From: Desulfobacula sp.
GTDB taxonomy: Bacteria > Desulfobacterota > Desulfobacteria > Desulfobacterales > Desulfobacteraceae
Assembly (NCBI GenBank): GCA_029940235.1
Contig: JAOZRI010000008.1
Span: 1-20,264 of the forward strand
Direction of reading: 5' to 3'
DNA: 20,264 nucleotides
This document shows, piece after piece, positions 8,111 to 18,990 of this stretch (the first letter of the stretch is position 1; the number at the start of each line of letters is the position of its first letter). The position numbers were made by a program, and so were the translations under genes. The notes under the pieces are model-generated. The model was not told the origin of the DNA. It searched no databases and worked only from the letters and a program-made list of their open reading frames with translations.

Positions 8111-10003
8111 TTAATTGGCACTTATTTTTTCAAATCCAATTACCTTAACAGTGAAATTTTGCAGTTTTTCAGGAAGCTCAGAAAAAACTATCATAAAGGG
8201 AACACTAGCCTTTGGTTTTACATTAGTATTTATGTTATTATTGCCAGCTTTTACTACCAAAATTTTATTGATATCTGCAATGTTTCCAGTTTTCAGCATA
8301 TCTTCCGGGATAATATTTCCGCAATAGGCATTTTTTGTTTTTGCCTCTTTGTTGCCCTTTGTAATTAATGCCCCGCTGATTTGAATATGTTTATATGCAA
8401 TGTTTGAAGAATTTTCCACCCTTCCTGTAATGACAAACAGGGTTCCTGTGGTTGAATTGGTAACAAATCTTCCATTAACACTTTTCTGGTCAGGCATTGG
8501 TTTTGTATCTGATACGTCAGATGCTGGTTTTTTCAAATACTGCTCAATAAAAGGAATTTGAATATCAGAAATATATGGGATTTTATACCCAGTCATAATG
8601 CTGGCAATATAAGCTCCTACAACAAGAAGACAAATAAGAAGAAGCAGTAGAACAGGGGTGCCTAAACCGCTCTTTTTCTTTCTTCTTCTGCTACCTGATG
8701 CAGGGACCAGTTTAGGGTGTTCCTCTTCCTGTTGAACTTTTGCATATTCTTTGCTCTCATCAATTTCAATGGTTTTTTCTTCAGAAGCCTCATCATCTTC
8801 TGGTTCAGTCTCTTGATTTAAGACCTCATCATACTCGGAAAAGTCATCTTCCGGAGTAACACCAGGAGCATCTGCCTCTTGTTCAACATCTTCGATTTTA
8901 TCTTCATCATATGCAATAACAGGTTCTTCCTGATCAGAATCTATATCAAAAGATGTATCTTTGTCTGTTTCATGGGTAGCATCTGTATCAGACTCTTCTT
9001 CAACATCAAATTCAAGTTCAAACTCTTCTTCACCTTCACTGCTTTGTTTTTCCATTTCAAAAGCAGGCTCACTCCCCTCTTCCATGGAAACAGGTTCATC
9101 ATCTTCAAGGGCTACAAACTCAATACCATCAGGGTCATCATCATCTTCAGTATCATTTTTAAACGCAAGTCCATCGTCCTCAAAGTCCAGGCTGTCATTC
9201 TCAAGGGTTTCTTGAGATGGACTCTCTTCATCCATTTCAAATTCACTCTCTTCAAAGGAGAAGTCATCTCCCATGTCAAGGTCTGAATCGGACTGATCAG
9301 GTTCTATACCAGATTCTGAAGCAGGCTTATGGTCAAGATCAATACCATCCATTTCAAGCGCTGACTCTTCTATTTCAAGTTCATCCTCTTCTATTATTAG
9401 GTCATCTTCGTCCATATCAAGCTCAGAGTCTTCTTCTATTTCAAGCTCATCTTCCTCCATCCCAATTTCAGAAGATTCCATTTCAAGCTCTTCATCACCA
9501 AACTCTAATTCAGCTTCATCCATCTCAAAATTATCATCACCCATTTCAAGATCTGATGATTCTTCTTCAAGGTCAGGCTCATCAATCTCAAAATCAAGGT
9601 CTGAATCTGTCTGGTCATCTTCTAAGTCAAGTTCAGTTTCTTCAATTTCCAGGTCAGGTTCTTCTAAATCAGGCTCTTCCATATCAAGTTCCAGGCCGTC
9701 ATCAAGATCTGTATCATCATCAAGATCAGGTTCATCCATATCAAGATCAGAAGATTTAATTTCCATATCACCATCATCTTCAATAGAAAAATCATCATTT
9801 TCCATTTCAAAATCAGATGATTCAGAGTCAAGATTCAGGCCTGATATTTCTTCAGTTTCCTGCTCCTGCTCTTTTTCCATGGACAGTGGATATGCAGTAA
9901 AAATATGTTTGCAAACACTACAGCGGCACTTTGAACCACTCTCTTTGATAAGAGAATCATCAAGGTTGAAGTTTGTGGAACACTCTTTACAGGTAATAAT
10001 CAT
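8111..10003 (-). CDS. Membrane-anchored zinc-ribbon protein with acidic linker and DUF3426-like C-terminus
   Basis: This is a 630-residue protein of unknown role. At the N-terminus a zinc-ribbon of the MJ0042 type has CKEC (residues 5-8) and CSVC (28-31). Residues of roughly 40-435 form a low-complexity linker made almost entirely of Asp, Glu, Ser and Leu/Met/Ile, with repeated units such as DLEMDEPDL, ELDMEEPDL and ELEIEEDSEL. A basic patch (SRRRKKKSG) precedes one transmembrane helix (about 449-470), placing the ribbon and acidic tract in the cytoplasm. The last 158 residues form a DUF3426-like domain (FVITGRVENSS...), presumably periplasmic. It lies 17 bases after hpt, and the start has AAGGGG upstream. 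The usual members of this family that I know have a much shorter linker. Repetition in the DNA makes the linker length prone to variation. Confidence 0.8.
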   Translation of the reverse strand: MIITCKECSTNFNLDDSLIKESGSKCRCSVCKHIFTAYPLSMEKEQEQETEEISGLNLDSESSDFEMENDDFSIEDDGDMEIKSSDLDMDEPDLDDDTDLDDGLELDMEEPDLEEPDLEIEETELDLEDDQTDSDLDFEIDEPDLEEESSDLEMGDDNFEMDEAELEFGDEELEMESSEIGMEEDELEIEEDSELDMDEDDLIIEEDELEIEESALEMDGIDLDHKPASESGIEPDQSDSDLDMGDDFSFEESEFEMDEESPSQETLENDSLDFEDDGLAFKNDTEDDDDPDGIEFVALEDDEPVSMEEGSEPAFEMEKQSSEGEEEFELEFDVEEESDTDATHETDKDTSFDIDSDQEEPVIAYDEDKIEDVEQEADAPGVTPEDDFSEYDEVLNQETEPEDDEASEEKTIEIDESKEYAKVQQEEEHPKLVPASGSRRRKKKSGLGTPVLLLLLICLLVVGAYIASIMTGYKIPYISDIQIPFIEQYLKKPASDVSDTKPMPDQKSVNGRFVTNSTTGTLFVITGRVENSSNIAYKHIQISGALITKGNKEAKTKNAYCGNIIPEDMLKTGNIADINKILVVKAGNNNINTNVKPKASVPFMIVFSELPEKLQNFTVKVIGFEKISAN

Positions 10004-10020: not shown

Positions 10021-10536
10021 CTATGGTTTAAGATCATAGATGGCAGGAAGGTTTCTATATTTTTCATTATAATCCAGTCCATACCCCACAATAAATCCTT
10101 TATCAAGTGAAAAACATGAATACTCAACATTTATTTGTACCTCACGTCGCTCATGTTTGTCAATCAAACTGCAAATTTTAATGGATCTGGGGTTTAATAA
10201 CTTTAAAAACTCTATTATTTTTAGAAGTGTATTGCCAGTGTCCACAATATCTTCCACAAGCAGAATATCTCTGTTTTCAAGTTCAAGATCCGGCTGCTTG
10301 GTGAAAACAATCTGGCCGGTTGACGATGTCCCTTCATAGGAAGATGCCCCTATAAGGTCAATTTCATGGTCAATTGTAATCTGCCTTGTAAGATCGGAAA
10401 GAAAAATAAAAGCACCTTTTAACACACCAATAAGAACAAGATCTTCTGTTTTATAATCGTTAGATATTTTCTCTGCGATTTTTTTTACCTGTTTGTTGAT
10501 CTCACTCTCTGATAGTAATGGAATAAATTGCGGCAT
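10021..10536 (-). CDS. hpt: Hypoxanthine phosphoribosyltransferase
   Basis: This purine-salvage enzyme joins hypoxanthine (and often guanine) to PRPP to give IMP or GMP. The 171-residue length is normal for bacterial Hpt. LIGVLKGAFIFLSDL near residue 35, the flexible SSYEGTSSTG loop, and the PRPP-binding LLVEDIVDTGNTL near 90 are diagnostic; KGFIVGYGLDYNEKYRNLP near the end contacts the base. The start at 10536 is 9 bases after the stop of the J-domain gene, and the next gene follows 17 bases beyond its own stop, so these genes are likely cotranscribed. Confidence 0.95.
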   Translation of the reverse strand: MPQFIPLLSESEINKQVKKIAEKISNDYKTEDLVLIGVLKGAFIFLSDLTRQITIDHEIDLIGASSYEGTSSTGQIVFTKQPDLELENRDILLVEDIVDTGNTLLKIIEFLKLLNPRSIKICSLIDKHERREVQINVEYSCFSLDKGFIVGYGLDYNEKYRNLPAIYDLKP

Positions 10537-10545
10537 AATTGTTTT

Positions 10546-11505
10546 TTATAACCCTGTTTTTTCTAATTGCTCAATGATTTCTTTCTGTTTTTCTGTCAAT
10601 TTTTTTGGCATATCTATATTAATCACAACAAAGAGATCTCCGCAACCATTTCCTTTTATGTGGGGTATTCCGTGTTCAGGTACCCTCATTTTTGCCCTGT
10701 GCTTTGTTCCGGCAGGAAGTTTTAGATTGATGGCTGTACCATCTGGTGTTGCAATTTCAATTGTATCTCCAAGAAGTGCCTGGGTCAGCTTAACTGATTT
10801 TGGCATAAGGATATTATTGCCTTCAATGGAGTACTCATCTGAAAGAATTGGGCTGGATTTTAGATAAAGATTGCCGGCTGGCCCTCCATTGGGGCTCATC
10901 TCTCCTTTTCCTGCAAGCCTGATTTTTTTTCCTTCAGTCAAGCCTTTTGGAATTTTAACTTCTATGGCTTTGGCTGTTCCACCCTGGTTGATGGTAATGG
11001 TCTTTTTACCGCCGTTTATCATTTCATGGATGCTTAGAGGAACAGAATATTCAATGTCATTGCCCCGAACTGGAGCCTGCTGGCGGCTTTGTCAGCCACC
11101 ACCTCCCATATTCTGGGAAAAGGGGTTACCTCCACCCATACCTGAAAAGCCGCCCTGCTGCCCGCCGCCCCTGCCAAAGGCCGAAGAGAATCCACCTCTC
11201 CTTGAAGAACCTCCAAATCCAAACTCCTTTAAAATATCACCAAGGTCAAAATTTCTGAAAATATCTTCCTGGGAAAAGCGTTGCTGGAAATCAGCTGATC
11301 CATAAGTATCATATTGATTCTTTTTTTCAGAATCACTTAGAACAGCATAGGCCTCGCTGATTTTTTTAAATTTAGTCTCCATTGCTTTATCACCCTCTGT
11401 TTTATCTGGATGATATTTTAACGCAAGTTTTCTATAAGCTTTTTTTATCTGTGCGGCACTGGCTTTTTTATCAATACCGAGTATTTTGTAATAATCTTCA
11501 GACAT
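10546..11505 (-). CDS. CbpA/DnaJ-type J-domain co-chaperone with in-frame UGA (candidate selenoprotein or nonsense-interrupted gene)
   Basis: J-domain proteins stimulate DnaK ATPase and deliver unfolded substrates. Read through one in-frame UGA (11092-11094, codon 138), the frame encodes 319 residues. Residues 1-70 are an intact J domain with the HPD signature ([13 protein letters not shown]). About 95-137 is a Gly/Phe/Gln-rich linker ending in four glycines. After the UGA the same frame gives [20 protein letters not shown], the canonical beginning of the C-terminal substrate-binding region, continuing NGGKKTITI...[12 protein letters not shown] to a TAA at 10546. There is no zinc-finger module, so it is CbpA-like. 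Both halves look conserved, with no frame change. Conventional calling would split it into 11092-11505 and a start at about 11022, but the conserved stretch 11023-11091 lies before that ATG. Explanations are selenocysteine insertion, a recent nonsense mutation, or sequence error. AAGGAAG precedes the ATG. Confidence 0.8.
11062..11076 (-). promoter_or_regulatory. Candidate bacterial SECIS hairpin 3' of the UGA
   Basis: Starting 15 bases after the UGA, the mRNA can form GCUCC-AGUUC-GGGGC: a 5-pair stem with one G-U and a 5-base loop beginning A-G. The loop starts 20 bases after the UGA. Known bacterial SECIS elements have a short stem-loop immediately downstream with a G in the first two loop bases, so spacing and loop fit. 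A 5-pair stem in a GC-rich stretch can occur by chance. Confidence 0.35.
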
Positions 11506-11612
11506 AGTCTTCCTTTATATTTTATGTGAATGAACCAATATGTTTTGTTGCTGTCAGCAACTATTACAATTTTGCCATGGCTGTTAATTCAATTATTTTA
11601 ACAATTTATGTT

Positions 11613-11643
11613 AGTATAGTAAGTTTGAATCTGTTCAAGTCAA
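11613..11643 (-). promoter_or_regulatory. Weak candidate promoter for the J-domain/hpt genes
   Basis: On the minus strand TTGACT (11643-11638) and TATACT (11618-11613) are separated by 19 bases, longer than ideal, and overlap the mnmG stop. It is in the right place to drive the J-domain gene about 110 bases downstream. No CIRCE element or sigma-32 motif is visible. Confidence 0.25.
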
Positions 11644-13517
11644 GCCTTGTTTTTAAATGCAGACAGCGCAACCATTAAAACAGAGATTGCAGCCGGGGTC
11701 ATACCCTCAATTCTGGATGCCTGCCCAAGGGATTTCGGCTGGATTTGACTCAATTTTTCTGTGAGTTCGTTGGACAGACCATGGGCTTTATTATAATCAA
11801 ATTTTTGTGGAATATTAATTTTTTCAAGGTCTTTATATTTGTTTATCTCTTTGATCTGACGCAAAATATACCCTTCGTATTTTATCTCTATTTCAGCCTG
11901 CTGTTCAGCCCTTGCAAGCACAGGTTCAGGCAGGGGACAGATTTTTTTTAAAGAGTTATAATCAATCTGAGATCTTTTTAACAGCTGATCAAGTTTTACC
12001 CCGTTTGTGATTGTATTTGTGCCCCTTTCAAGTAAAAAATTATTAACAGCTTTGGTGGGCTTTACAATGGTTTTTTTAATTCGCTTGATCTCTTTTTGAG
12101 TCTGGGTCTGTATCTCTTTGCAAAGTTTTAAAGTATCACTATCCACAAGACCCAACTCATTTCCAATGGCAGACAATCTTAAATCTGCATTATCTTCTCT
12201 GAGCAGCAGTCGGTATTCAGCCCTTGAGGTGAACATCCTATATGGCTCTTTTGTCCCTTTTGTGACAAGGTCATCCACCATAACACCCATATATCCCTGG
12301 GATCGGTCGAGGATAAACGGCTCTCTTTTTTGAACCATACAGGCGGCATTAACACCTGCCCACAAGCCTTGAGCTCCTGCTTCCTCATATCCTGAAGTAC
12401 CATTTATCTGTCCTGCAAGAAAAAGTCCCTTTACTCTTTTGGCTTCAAGGGTAGCGGATAATTCCAGCGGATTAATATAATCATATTCAATGGCATAGGC
12501 AGGCCGCATAATTTGAGCTGATTCAAGCCCTTTAACTGATCTTACAACCTTATACTGAATTTCAAGGGGCAAACTGTTACCAAGACCTGAAGCATATATC
12601 TCCTTTGAATCCATTCCTTCGTATTCAAGAATAACATGGTGGCTTTCCCGTTCTGGAAATTTTACAATTTTATCTTCAAAAGAGGGGCAGTATCTTGCAG
12701 ACATCCCTTTTATATGTCCACCGTATAGAGCTGAATATTTAAGATTCTGCCTTATAATCTCATGGGTTTTAAGGTTTGTACGCCCCATAAAACTTGGCAG
12801 CATGGGATTTACAATGGATTCTGTTGAAAAAGAGAAGGGTTTGGGGTTCTTGTCTGAATCATTGATATCAAATTGTAAAAAATCAATGGAATCAGCATGG
12901 AGTCGCGGCGGTGTCCCGGTTTTCATTCTTCCCATATTAAACCCTATTGTGGCAAGATCATCTGCAAGACCTATGGATGAAAATTCTCCAGCCCTGCCCG
13001 CATGGGTTTTTGATGAGCCGATATGTACTACCCCTTTCAGAAAAGTTCCAGTTGCAATTACAATTGCTTTTGTTGCATATTCAAAACCTGTCTGATCAAC
13101 AACTCCTTTTACCATACTGTTTTCAATTATAAGTTTGTGAGCCATCCCCTGTTTTAAATCCAGATTTTCACTCTTTTCAAGGACATTTTTCATATTTTTT
13201 GAATAGAGATATTTATCATTTTGAGTTCTGGTGGAGTGAACTGCAGGGCCTTTGCGTGTATTCAGTGTTTTATATTGAATAGCAGAAGAGTCTGTAACTT
13301 TTGCCATTGCACCGCCAAGGGCATCAATCTCTTTAACAAGCTGCCCTTTGGCCATGCCTCCAATGGAAGGACTGCATGGCATGGATGCAATCTTATCCAT
13401 ATCAATGGTTAAAAGCAGAGTAGTGCACCCCATGCGTGCTGAAGCAAGAGCTGCTTCACATCCGGCATGACCGGCTCCTATAACAATGACATCATATTTT
13501 TTATAATTTGAATTCAT
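11640..13517 (-). CDS. mnmG: tRNA uridine-5-carboxymethylaminomethyl synthesis enzyme MnmG (GidA)
   Basis: With MnmE, this FAD enzyme installs the (carboxymethyl)aminomethyl group at wobble uridine 34 of several tRNAs. The protein opens with the FAD Rossmann motif [16 protein letters not shown]. The family signature [16 protein letters not shown] and the later [19 protein letters not shown] follow, and the C-terminal helical domain ends [20 protein letters not shown]. From ATG 13517 it has 625 residues, typical of MnmG. The frame extends to a GTG at 13535 (631 residues), but [14 protein letters not shown] is the more natural start; neither has an ideal ribosome site. It is the first of a minus-strand run with the J-domain gene, hpt and the DUF3426 gene, and MnmE is not in the window. 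Confidence 0.95.
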
Positions 13518-13642
13518 AACCTGATAATATATCACCTGCTTGAAACAATGATCAATACTTAAAATTCAAAATTTACTGCCCTCGTTTGTAATGGCTTCTG
13601 TAAAATTTCCATGGCAAATATCCAGATGCTTTTAAATTGAGG

Positions 13643-18331: not shown

Positions 18332-18616
18332 CTATGCTGCTACTGGTTCAATATTTTTCAAAGATAGATAGTTTACCTGACTGAGTTCCCAGTTGTTTTG
18401 AAGATTAAGCCAGAATTGAGGGCTGCCTCCCAGTGATTTTGACAGCTTTACTGCCATTTCAGCACTTATGCCTCGTTTACCCCGACATATTTCATTAATT
18501 GTTTTCGGCAATACACCAATATGCTTTGCCAGTGCTGTTTGAGAAAGTTCTATTTCTTCTAACTCATCCTTTAAAATTTCCCCAGGATGAATAGGTGTAA
18601 TATGTAATTCAGACAT
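18332..18616 (-). CDS. higA: HigA antitoxin (XRE-family HTH)
   Basis: This is the antitoxin and autorepressor of a type II toxin-antitoxin pair. The 94-residue protein begins with the family signature HPGEILKDELEE, followed by a helix-turn-helix (LSQTALAKHIGVLPKTINEICRGKRGIS) and the closing LGGSPQFWLNLQNNWEL, the standard HigA/VapI ending. It is second in the operon, 19 bases after higB, in the usual toxin-first order. GGAG lies 7 bases before the ATG. Its DNA target is probably the large palindrome at 18971-19028. Confidence 0.95.
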   Translation of the reverse strand: MSELHITPIHPGEILKDELEEIELSQTALAKHIGVLPKTINEICRGKRGISAEMAVKLSKSLGGSPQFWLNLQNNWELSQVNYLSLKNIEPVAA

Positions 18617-18635
18617 TAAAAATCTCCTTTTTTAA

Positions 18636-18932
18636 TCAGTGATAATCAATAATTTCCACATCTGTTGCATATGCTTTGATCCATCTAAAACAAATTCGAT
18701 ATTGGTCATTGATCCGAATGCTATTTTGCCCTTTTCTATTGCCTTTGAGTGATTTAAATCGGTTGCCCCTAATTTCACGTAGATCCTGAATAGAAGTAGC
18801 TGCACTTAAACGGGCAAGCTTGATCTGAGCTTTTTTATGGAGTATTTTAGGCAATAGATTGATAGCTGATTTGGAAATTATACCATAATTGATATCCTGT
18901 GTAGCCTTGTTTTTAAAATTTTTTATTGCCAT
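18636..18932 (-). CDS. higB: HigB toxin (RelE/ParE-type mRNA interferase)
   Basis: This is a ribosome-dependent mRNA endonuclease of the RelE superfamily, neutralised by HigA. The C-terminal block LREIRGNRFKSLKGNRKGQNSIRINDQYRICFRW...DVEIIDYH is the conserved HigB core containing the basic active-site residues. The start ATG 18932 gives MAIKNFKNK and 98 residues, with AGAGGTG 7 bases upstream. The frame is open ten codons further to 18962, but those residues (MGLSLKRCCI) do not look like the family and would overlap the transcription start. The protein appears complete and probably functional. Confidence 0.93.
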   Translation of the reverse strand: MAIKNFKNKATQDINYGIISKSAINLLPKILHKKAQIKLARLSAATSIQDLREIRGNRFKSLKGNRKGQNSIRINDQYRICFRWIKAYATDVEIIDYH

Positions 18933-18960
18933 GATGCAACACCTCTTTAACGATAGACCC

Positions 18961-18990
18961 ACTATACCGGTAAACAGTATAAAATGTCAA
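18961..18990 (-). promoter_or_regulatory. higBA promoter
   Basis: On the minus strand TTGACA (18990-18985) and TATAGT (18966-18961) are 18 bases apart. The -35 box lies inside the left arm of the palindrome, so HigA binding there would block transcription. Confidence 0.7.

Follow-up and report, generated by a model that had tools for sequence, protein, structure and literature searches.

A probable selenocysteine codon in the linker of a class II J-domain protein from Desulfobacula and related bacteria

The J-protein gene and its surroundings

The window, that is, the whole analysed stretch of 20,264 nucleotides from a Desulfobacula sp. genome (genome G000), encodes on its minus strand, at 10546-11505, a J-protein (gene L001) in one frame of 320 codons; codon 138 is UGA (11094-11092) and the last codon is TAA. 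In the initial annotation, codons 1-137 and 139-319 were described as one reading frame split only by the UGA at 11092-11094, and these coordinates and codon numbers are right; the 23 residues it placed between the UGA and the next ATG agree with the codon count, this ATG being codon +24. The UGA lies within a Gly-rich linker, directly N-terminal of the substrate-binding domain. An HPD motif is present, and Pfam assigns a J domain and a DnaJ_C domain with no zinc domain; the product is therefore a class II, CbpA-like J-protein. The features of the locus are as follows.

10546..11505, minus strand: gene encoding a class II J-domain protein of 319 residues when read through one UGA, with Sec proposed at residue 138 (frame, orthologs, Pfam)
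11509..11514, minus strand: Shine-Dalgarno-like AGGAAG ahead of the ATG at 11505 (read from the sequence)
11308..11496, minus strand: J domain, residues 4-66, PF00226 (Pfam)
11056..11307, minus strand: Gly-rich linker, residues 67-150, which contains the UGA and in which relatives have Cys (alignments)
11092..11094, minus strand: in-frame UGA, codon 138, proposed selenocysteine codon (in 8 of 79 family orthologs)
11062..11076, minus strand: bSECIS-like hairpin GCUCC-AGUUC-GGGGC, with its loop 20 nt past the UGA (hairpin scan, energy calculation)
10606..11055, minus strand: substrate-binding domain DnaJ_C, residues 151-300, PF01556 (Pfam)
10642..10644, minus strand: Cys288 (GCGDLF), the sole cysteine of the protein and a possible Sec partner (motif count)
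10021..10536, minus strand: hypoxanthine phosphoribosyltransferase gene (hpt), the next gene downstream, 9 nt past the J-protein TAA (profile match)
11640..13535, minus strand: mnmG, the upstream gene, which ends in TGA (profile match)

Five of the 21 reading frames in the window taken as genes, mnmG among them, terminate at UGA; the codon is therefore not reassigned genome-wide, and this explanation was ruled out. By eye, another UGA-containing J-protein gene (L052) also precedes the start of a similar, hpt-like protein. Elsewhere in the window, the minus strand encodes a protein that begins with an MJ0042 zinc ribbon and contains a very long stretch rich in Asp and Glu (8111-10003) and, at 18332-18962, two small adjoining genes that resemble a HigB/HigA-type toxin-antitoxin pair by eye.

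Conservation of the UGA and of the hairpin behind it

An ortholog (E <= 1e-60) was found in 79 of the 86 genomes of the family that were scanned, one per species, and eight of the 79 have exactly one in-frame TGA. These carriers fall into three genera, namely g1 (G000, G001), g36 (G106, G105, G104, G102) and g8 (G075, G073), and all eight share the motif GGG-U-[G/Q]-S-[R/S]-Q-(Q)-A-P-V-R-G around the UGA. Silent divergence after the UGA is high (pS of 0.38-0.77 over the 28 carrier pairs), while dN/dS is 0.09-0.22 in 27 pairs, the 28th being too diverged at silent sites; for L001 and L002 the ratio is 0.145 across 181 codons. By these ratios the protein behind the UGA is under purifying selection, and the decay of the downstream half that the initial annotation had named as evidence against selenocysteine was not seen. 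A UGA kept despite such silent divergence, with a constrained sequence downstream, is unlike a mere stop codon.

The remaining 71 of the 79 orthologs have no UGA, and many have Phe or Gly at that position; on this comparison, a Sec residue is dispensable to the protein. Homologs with a sense residue and no hairpin had also been listed as counting against Sec: most of the 71 are of this kind, whereas the eight carriers keep both the UGA and the hairpin, the joint conservation that had been proposed as a check of the Sec reading. Outside the family, a wider scan of the order (389 genomes, 337 matched) gave no UGA carriers among the matches listed, and in the full list of a phylum scan (395 genomes, 113 matched) the short UGA-type open frame was present in G000 only. 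A more distant J-protein match with 41% identity and one in-frame TGA was observed in a genome of the same order (G038:C1:15598-16398).

All eight carriers have a bSECIS-like stem whose loop starts 18-20 nt past the UGA and has G within its first two positions, followed by U. In six of them the hairpin is GCCCCG-GUY-CGGGGC, with an energy of -10.3 kcal/mol in isolation. For the window, the initial annotation had placed the hairpin and its loop, 20 nt from the UGA, correctly; however, the structure itself is weak, since the isolated hairpin has only -6.1 kcal/mol (-5.7 in L002) and in both genes it differs from the minimum-energy fold of a longer stretch (45 nt in L001). When synonymous codons were redrawn, an equal hairpin score was reached in 1.0-1.7% of draws for the six carriers, 22% for L001 and 20% for L002; in the same test by total folding energy of a 42-nt stretch, only two of the eight carriers fell below 0.05. 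Taken alone, the window's predicted hairpin is thus not beyond chance, and it is the cross-species comparison that makes the case. According to the available text of a 2026 review (PMC13188914), bSECIS elements are limited to stems of 4-16 bp and loops of 3-9 nt with G in the first two positions; the distance from UGA to loop is 16-37 nt, and the free energy is no higher than -7.5 kcal/mol. The geometry (stem, loop, G and distance) agrees with these limits in all eight carriers and in two genes of a second lineage described below (L271 and L272); against the energy limit, the isolated hairpins of the six carriers (-10.3), L271 (-10.0) and L272 (-10.7) lie below -7.5 kcal/mol, and those of L001 and L002 lie above it.

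Codon usage within the hairpin was uneven. The codons of the 3' arm, CGG GGC, are invariant in all eight carriers. By comparison, each of the four remaining invariant Arg columns draws on 3-5 different codons, and among the 15 remaining invariant Gly columns downstream, 13 show codon variation; 8 of the 58 other invariant degenerate columns downstream are likewise without codon change. In the 5' arm and loop, codon choice is no more constrained than in other columns (identical-codon fraction 0.39-0.57 vs. a mean of 0.52), with pairing mostly kept. Most non-UGA orthologs are without the hairpin; a score at least as high as the window's (>= 8.3) was found in 10 of 54 non-carrier rows, comprising L042, L040 and eight g8 rows, seven of which have GCC or GCA as the loop rather than GU. 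These leftover hairpins may be fossils of an ancestral SECIS.

Additionally, the half of the protein before the UGA was used to query 5.8 billion proteins, with the 8000 best candidates scored. A run of glycines (GGG) stands at the end of 50 protein clusters among the 60 best, and of 55 among the 120 listed; at least three of these approximately 50 clusters correspond to genes of the carriers themselves (P0023, P0031, P0034). The GGG-ending clusters presumably stop at a TGA; some of their contigs are short. The truncated products bear names such as 'curved DNA-binding protein' and 'DnaJ domain-containing protein', and current annotation splits these J-protein genes in half. Other linkers likewise end right after GGG (P0069, P0084, P0088 and P0071 within the 120; P0247, P0266 and P0273 from an additional search); these two linker types are possibly further Sec lineages, and no genome with the downstream DNA for any of the seven was found in the 395-genome and 257-genome scans.

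Cysteine counterparts, a second lineage and the Sec machinery

A Cys homolog, another check proposed with the Sec reading, was found in a ninth species beyond the eight carriers: in G074 (L042), TGC stands at the UGA site (GGGGCGGGSRQAPVRG) and the hairpin GCCCCGGUCCGGGGC is retained, which is as expected for a Sec-to-Cys change, a direction we infer. Among 120 listed full-length relatives, the linkers of 115 of which were cut automatically, seven more have a linker Cys at the site or about a residue from it (P0126, P0128, P0136, P0145, P0171, P0230 and, by eye, P0178), and none of the Desulfobacteraceae-type carriers has one. The Cys288 motif is present in all eight carriers and in 44 of 54 non-carriers, so its presence does not track Sec, and it stands as a possible rather than a demonstrated dedicated partner of Sec.

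A second UGA lineage, which goes beyond the initial annotation as do the Cys motifs found at the same place in relatives, was detected in another order of the phylum. Scans of this order covered 257 genomes, of which 226 matched; under a stricter limit 82 matched, revealing G989 and G990 (genus g432, family f133), both of which have a UGA in the same J-protein linker. These two were missing from the listed part of the 226 matches, so such lists do not establish that carriers are absent. Both species examined of g432 are therefore carriers, and their loci (L271 and L272) read GGSCGQT(N/S)SGFG-UGA-Q(G/Q)(S/N)VKGQD with the C-terminal domain intact and a dN/dS after the UGA of 0.04 (pS 0.70, 175 codons). 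Their 8-bp hairpin, AAGGGGCA-GGAU(U/A)-UGUCCCUU, has its loop 20 nt past the UGA and differs from that of the first lineage. Synonymous redraws reached its score in 1.1-1.2% of cases (folding-energy values 0.18 and 0.04), and no hairpin of that score lay at that distance in 53 non-UGA control stretches, those placeable from 80 loci of the 395-genome and 257-genome scans. Two other loci were considered and rejected as UGA genes: in G881 (L274) the J-protein frame is broken by a shift, and in G1009 (L273) it ends at the contig end.

Cysteine is frequent at this place in the second order. Within f133, Cys falls at the corresponding few positions in seven non-UGA loci (L201, L278, L279, L281, L282, L286, L287); six others have none in the stretch shown and two gave no match. 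Of the best 30 of 226 matches to P0069, 29 were readable, and by a loose automatic cut 27 of these 29 have Cys before the C-terminal domain, 25 of them loci with two or more. In several of L191-L201 and most of L221-L250, a GGGC(x)3-4C motif, often with an H after it and checked by eye in 40 residues, immediately precedes the C-terminal domain. Similar proteins bear the names Desulfobulbaceae or Desulfobulbales, hence 'Desulfobulbales-type'; in such J-proteins the motif could be a dithiol or metal site.

The Sec machinery, whose presence in the genome had been a further proposed check, was found: G000 has selA, selB over the cut-off, a tRNA-Sec at 76.5 bits and a selD that itself contains an in-frame TGA. 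Across 25 genomes (the 8 carriers and 17 others), matches over the cut-off were obtained for selA in all 25, for selD in 24 and for tRNA-Sec in 23; G100 lacked such a match for selD and tRNA-Sec, and the carrier G102 for tRNA-Sec. For selB, 14 of 15 genomes were over the cut-off and the miss was again G102, an assembly of approximately 1270 contigs in which selA and selD are present and no selB or tRNA-Sec exceeded the cut-off. Both selA and selB are present in G989 and G990. One genome has an additional tRNA-Sec-like match that exceeds the cut-off, at 55.8 bits (G087:C1:529912-529999).

A gene tree of 61 rows was built with the linker excluded and L026 left out as incomplete. The UGA state requires at least four changes on this tree, and the carriers do not form one clade: L001 and L002 adjoin 17 non-UGA rows of their own genus, four of the five g36 rows have the UGA, and a small g8 group that includes the Cys species has it in two of its four rows and adjoins 14 other g8 rows. 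The change count is mute on gain versus loss, four gains being the fewest changes. We prefer an older Sec with repeated loss over four gains, because the carriers share the GSRQ(Q)APVRG motif and some non-carriers retain hairpins. A single Sec gene spreading horizontally was considered and set aside; the gene tree keeps genera largely together, and vertical descent is therefore preferred.

Interpretation and relation to known systems

Combined, the comparisons make it very probable that the UGA at 11092-11094 is the selenocysteine codon of a class II J-protein, and Sec would accordingly be inserted there in the cell. SelB and Sec-tRNA-Sec, recruited by the hairpin directly 3' of the UGA, would insert Sec and thereby yield the 319-residue class II J-protein, with the selenol placed in the flexible, Gly-rich stretch that connects the DnaK-recruiting J domain to the substrate-binding domain. 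There it could attack, and so reduce or reshuffle, disulfides or oxidised thiols of clients on the C-terminal domain before DnaK unfolds the client, and could be resolved by cellular thiols or by Cys288. The function predicted from this arrangement, a redox site that would give a zinc-finger-less J-protein the thiol-reductase ability of DnaJ, is to us an even call. Because Sec insertion competes with termination, a short J-linker product would also be expected.

A neutral bystander is rather unlikely: Sec would be inserted into a permissive Gly linker with gain and loss tolerated and no redox function, in keeping with the at least four changes of UGA state, the Phe or Gly of sister sequences and the lack of a partner Cys in the window's linker. 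Against this stand the invariant 3' hairpin arm, the recurrence of the UGA in another order and the Cys at the same spot in the 27 of 29 P0069-matching loci, as well as the cost of Sec insertion.

Two further explanations are each very improbable. The UGA could be a real stop behind a short J-domain/Gly-linker protein, with the C-terminal half made from its own start or absent; J plus Gly/Phe fragments can act alone, and L001 and L002 have an ATG 24 codons past the UGA. However, in three of the eight carriers the first 59 codons past the UGA include no ATG, GTG or TTG, an SD-like match precedes one of the nine listed starts, and the A-P-V-R-G between the UGA and the later starts is identical in all eight; no start codon after the UGA is common to all eight carriers, and separate initiation of the C-terminal half within the gene was rejected. 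Alternatively, the UGA could be read by a near-cognate or suppressor tRNA, giving Trp, Cys or Gly, as some UGA stops leak and a Gly linker tolerates many residues. Such readthrough agrees poorly with a hairpin of bSECIS geometry accompanying the UGA in two lineages, the presence of the Sec machinery, the Cys found at the site and the use of UGA as a normal stop here. A recent nonsense mutation or base-calling error with a decaying pseudogene downstream, compatible with the 71 orthologs without UGA and with the fragmented, 79% complete assembly of the window's genome, is extremely improbable in view of the same UGA in assemblies of eight species and the downstream constraint; the comparable end point of 50 of the 60 best clusters adds to this.

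Several known systems resemble the selenocysteine-containing J-protein proposed here. Class II J-proteins such as E. coli CbpA and Thermus DnaJ2 share its J domain, Gly-rich linker and C-terminal domain with no zinc-domain match, and solved DnaJ-type chains match the window's protein, which differs by the proposed linker Sec and one Cys in the C-terminal domain. ERdj5 (DNAJC10) likewise combines a J domain with redox chemistry; in contrast, it does so through thioredoxin domains and is not known to be a selenoprotein. In class I DnaJ, too, a chalcogen site separates the J/linker part from the substrate-binding domain, but with four CxxC motifs and zinc instead of one Sec in a flexible linker, and the window's protein misses the NCBIfam DnaJ equivalog cut-off (249.5 vs. 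377.2 bits). In the available text of PMC4428491, DnaJ owes to its Cys-rich domain a thiol-disulfide oxidoreductase activity, which cooperates with DnaK when clients are oxidised; CbpA and other type II J-proteins are described as being without a cysteine-rich domain, and Thermus DnaJ2 is said to be cysteine-free. The bacterial selenoproteins catalogued in 2026 resemble the present case in their in-frame UGA, bSECIS-like hairpin and Cys homologs, as far as the available text goes (PMC13188914); the same text counts 119 prokaryotic selenoprotein families and subfamilies, with no J-protein or Hsp40 in its Table 1 and no occurrence of DnaJ or J-domain. Similarly, the available main text of a study reporting 34 putative selenoproteins in a Desulfobacula-like genome, its supplementary list apart, mentions neither DnaJ nor chaperone (PMC8318568). 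No J-domain selenoprotein appeared in the open-licence literature searched, including that on DnaJ redox activity, and no NCBIfam model for one was among the matches; we take it as unpublished within this literature. We know of no earlier J-protein that uses selenocysteine.

More broadly, and as a tentative proposal that falls somewhat short of an even chance, the linker of zinc-less J-proteins in these bacteria may be a redox hot-spot in which Sec evolved on two or more occasions, out of Cys motifs or next to them, and with different SECIS hairpins. Such proteins would form a class of redox co-chaperones that depend on selenium, and Sec supply would additionally determine how much short J-linker form is made relative to full-length protein. 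If the Sec reading is true, this would be the first known J-protein using selenocysteine and would link selenium with the Hsp70 cycle; a further benefit would be a direct way to test the role of a thiol or selenol located after the J domain and ahead of the substrate-binding domain, which is at issue because of the weak reductase activity of DnaJ.
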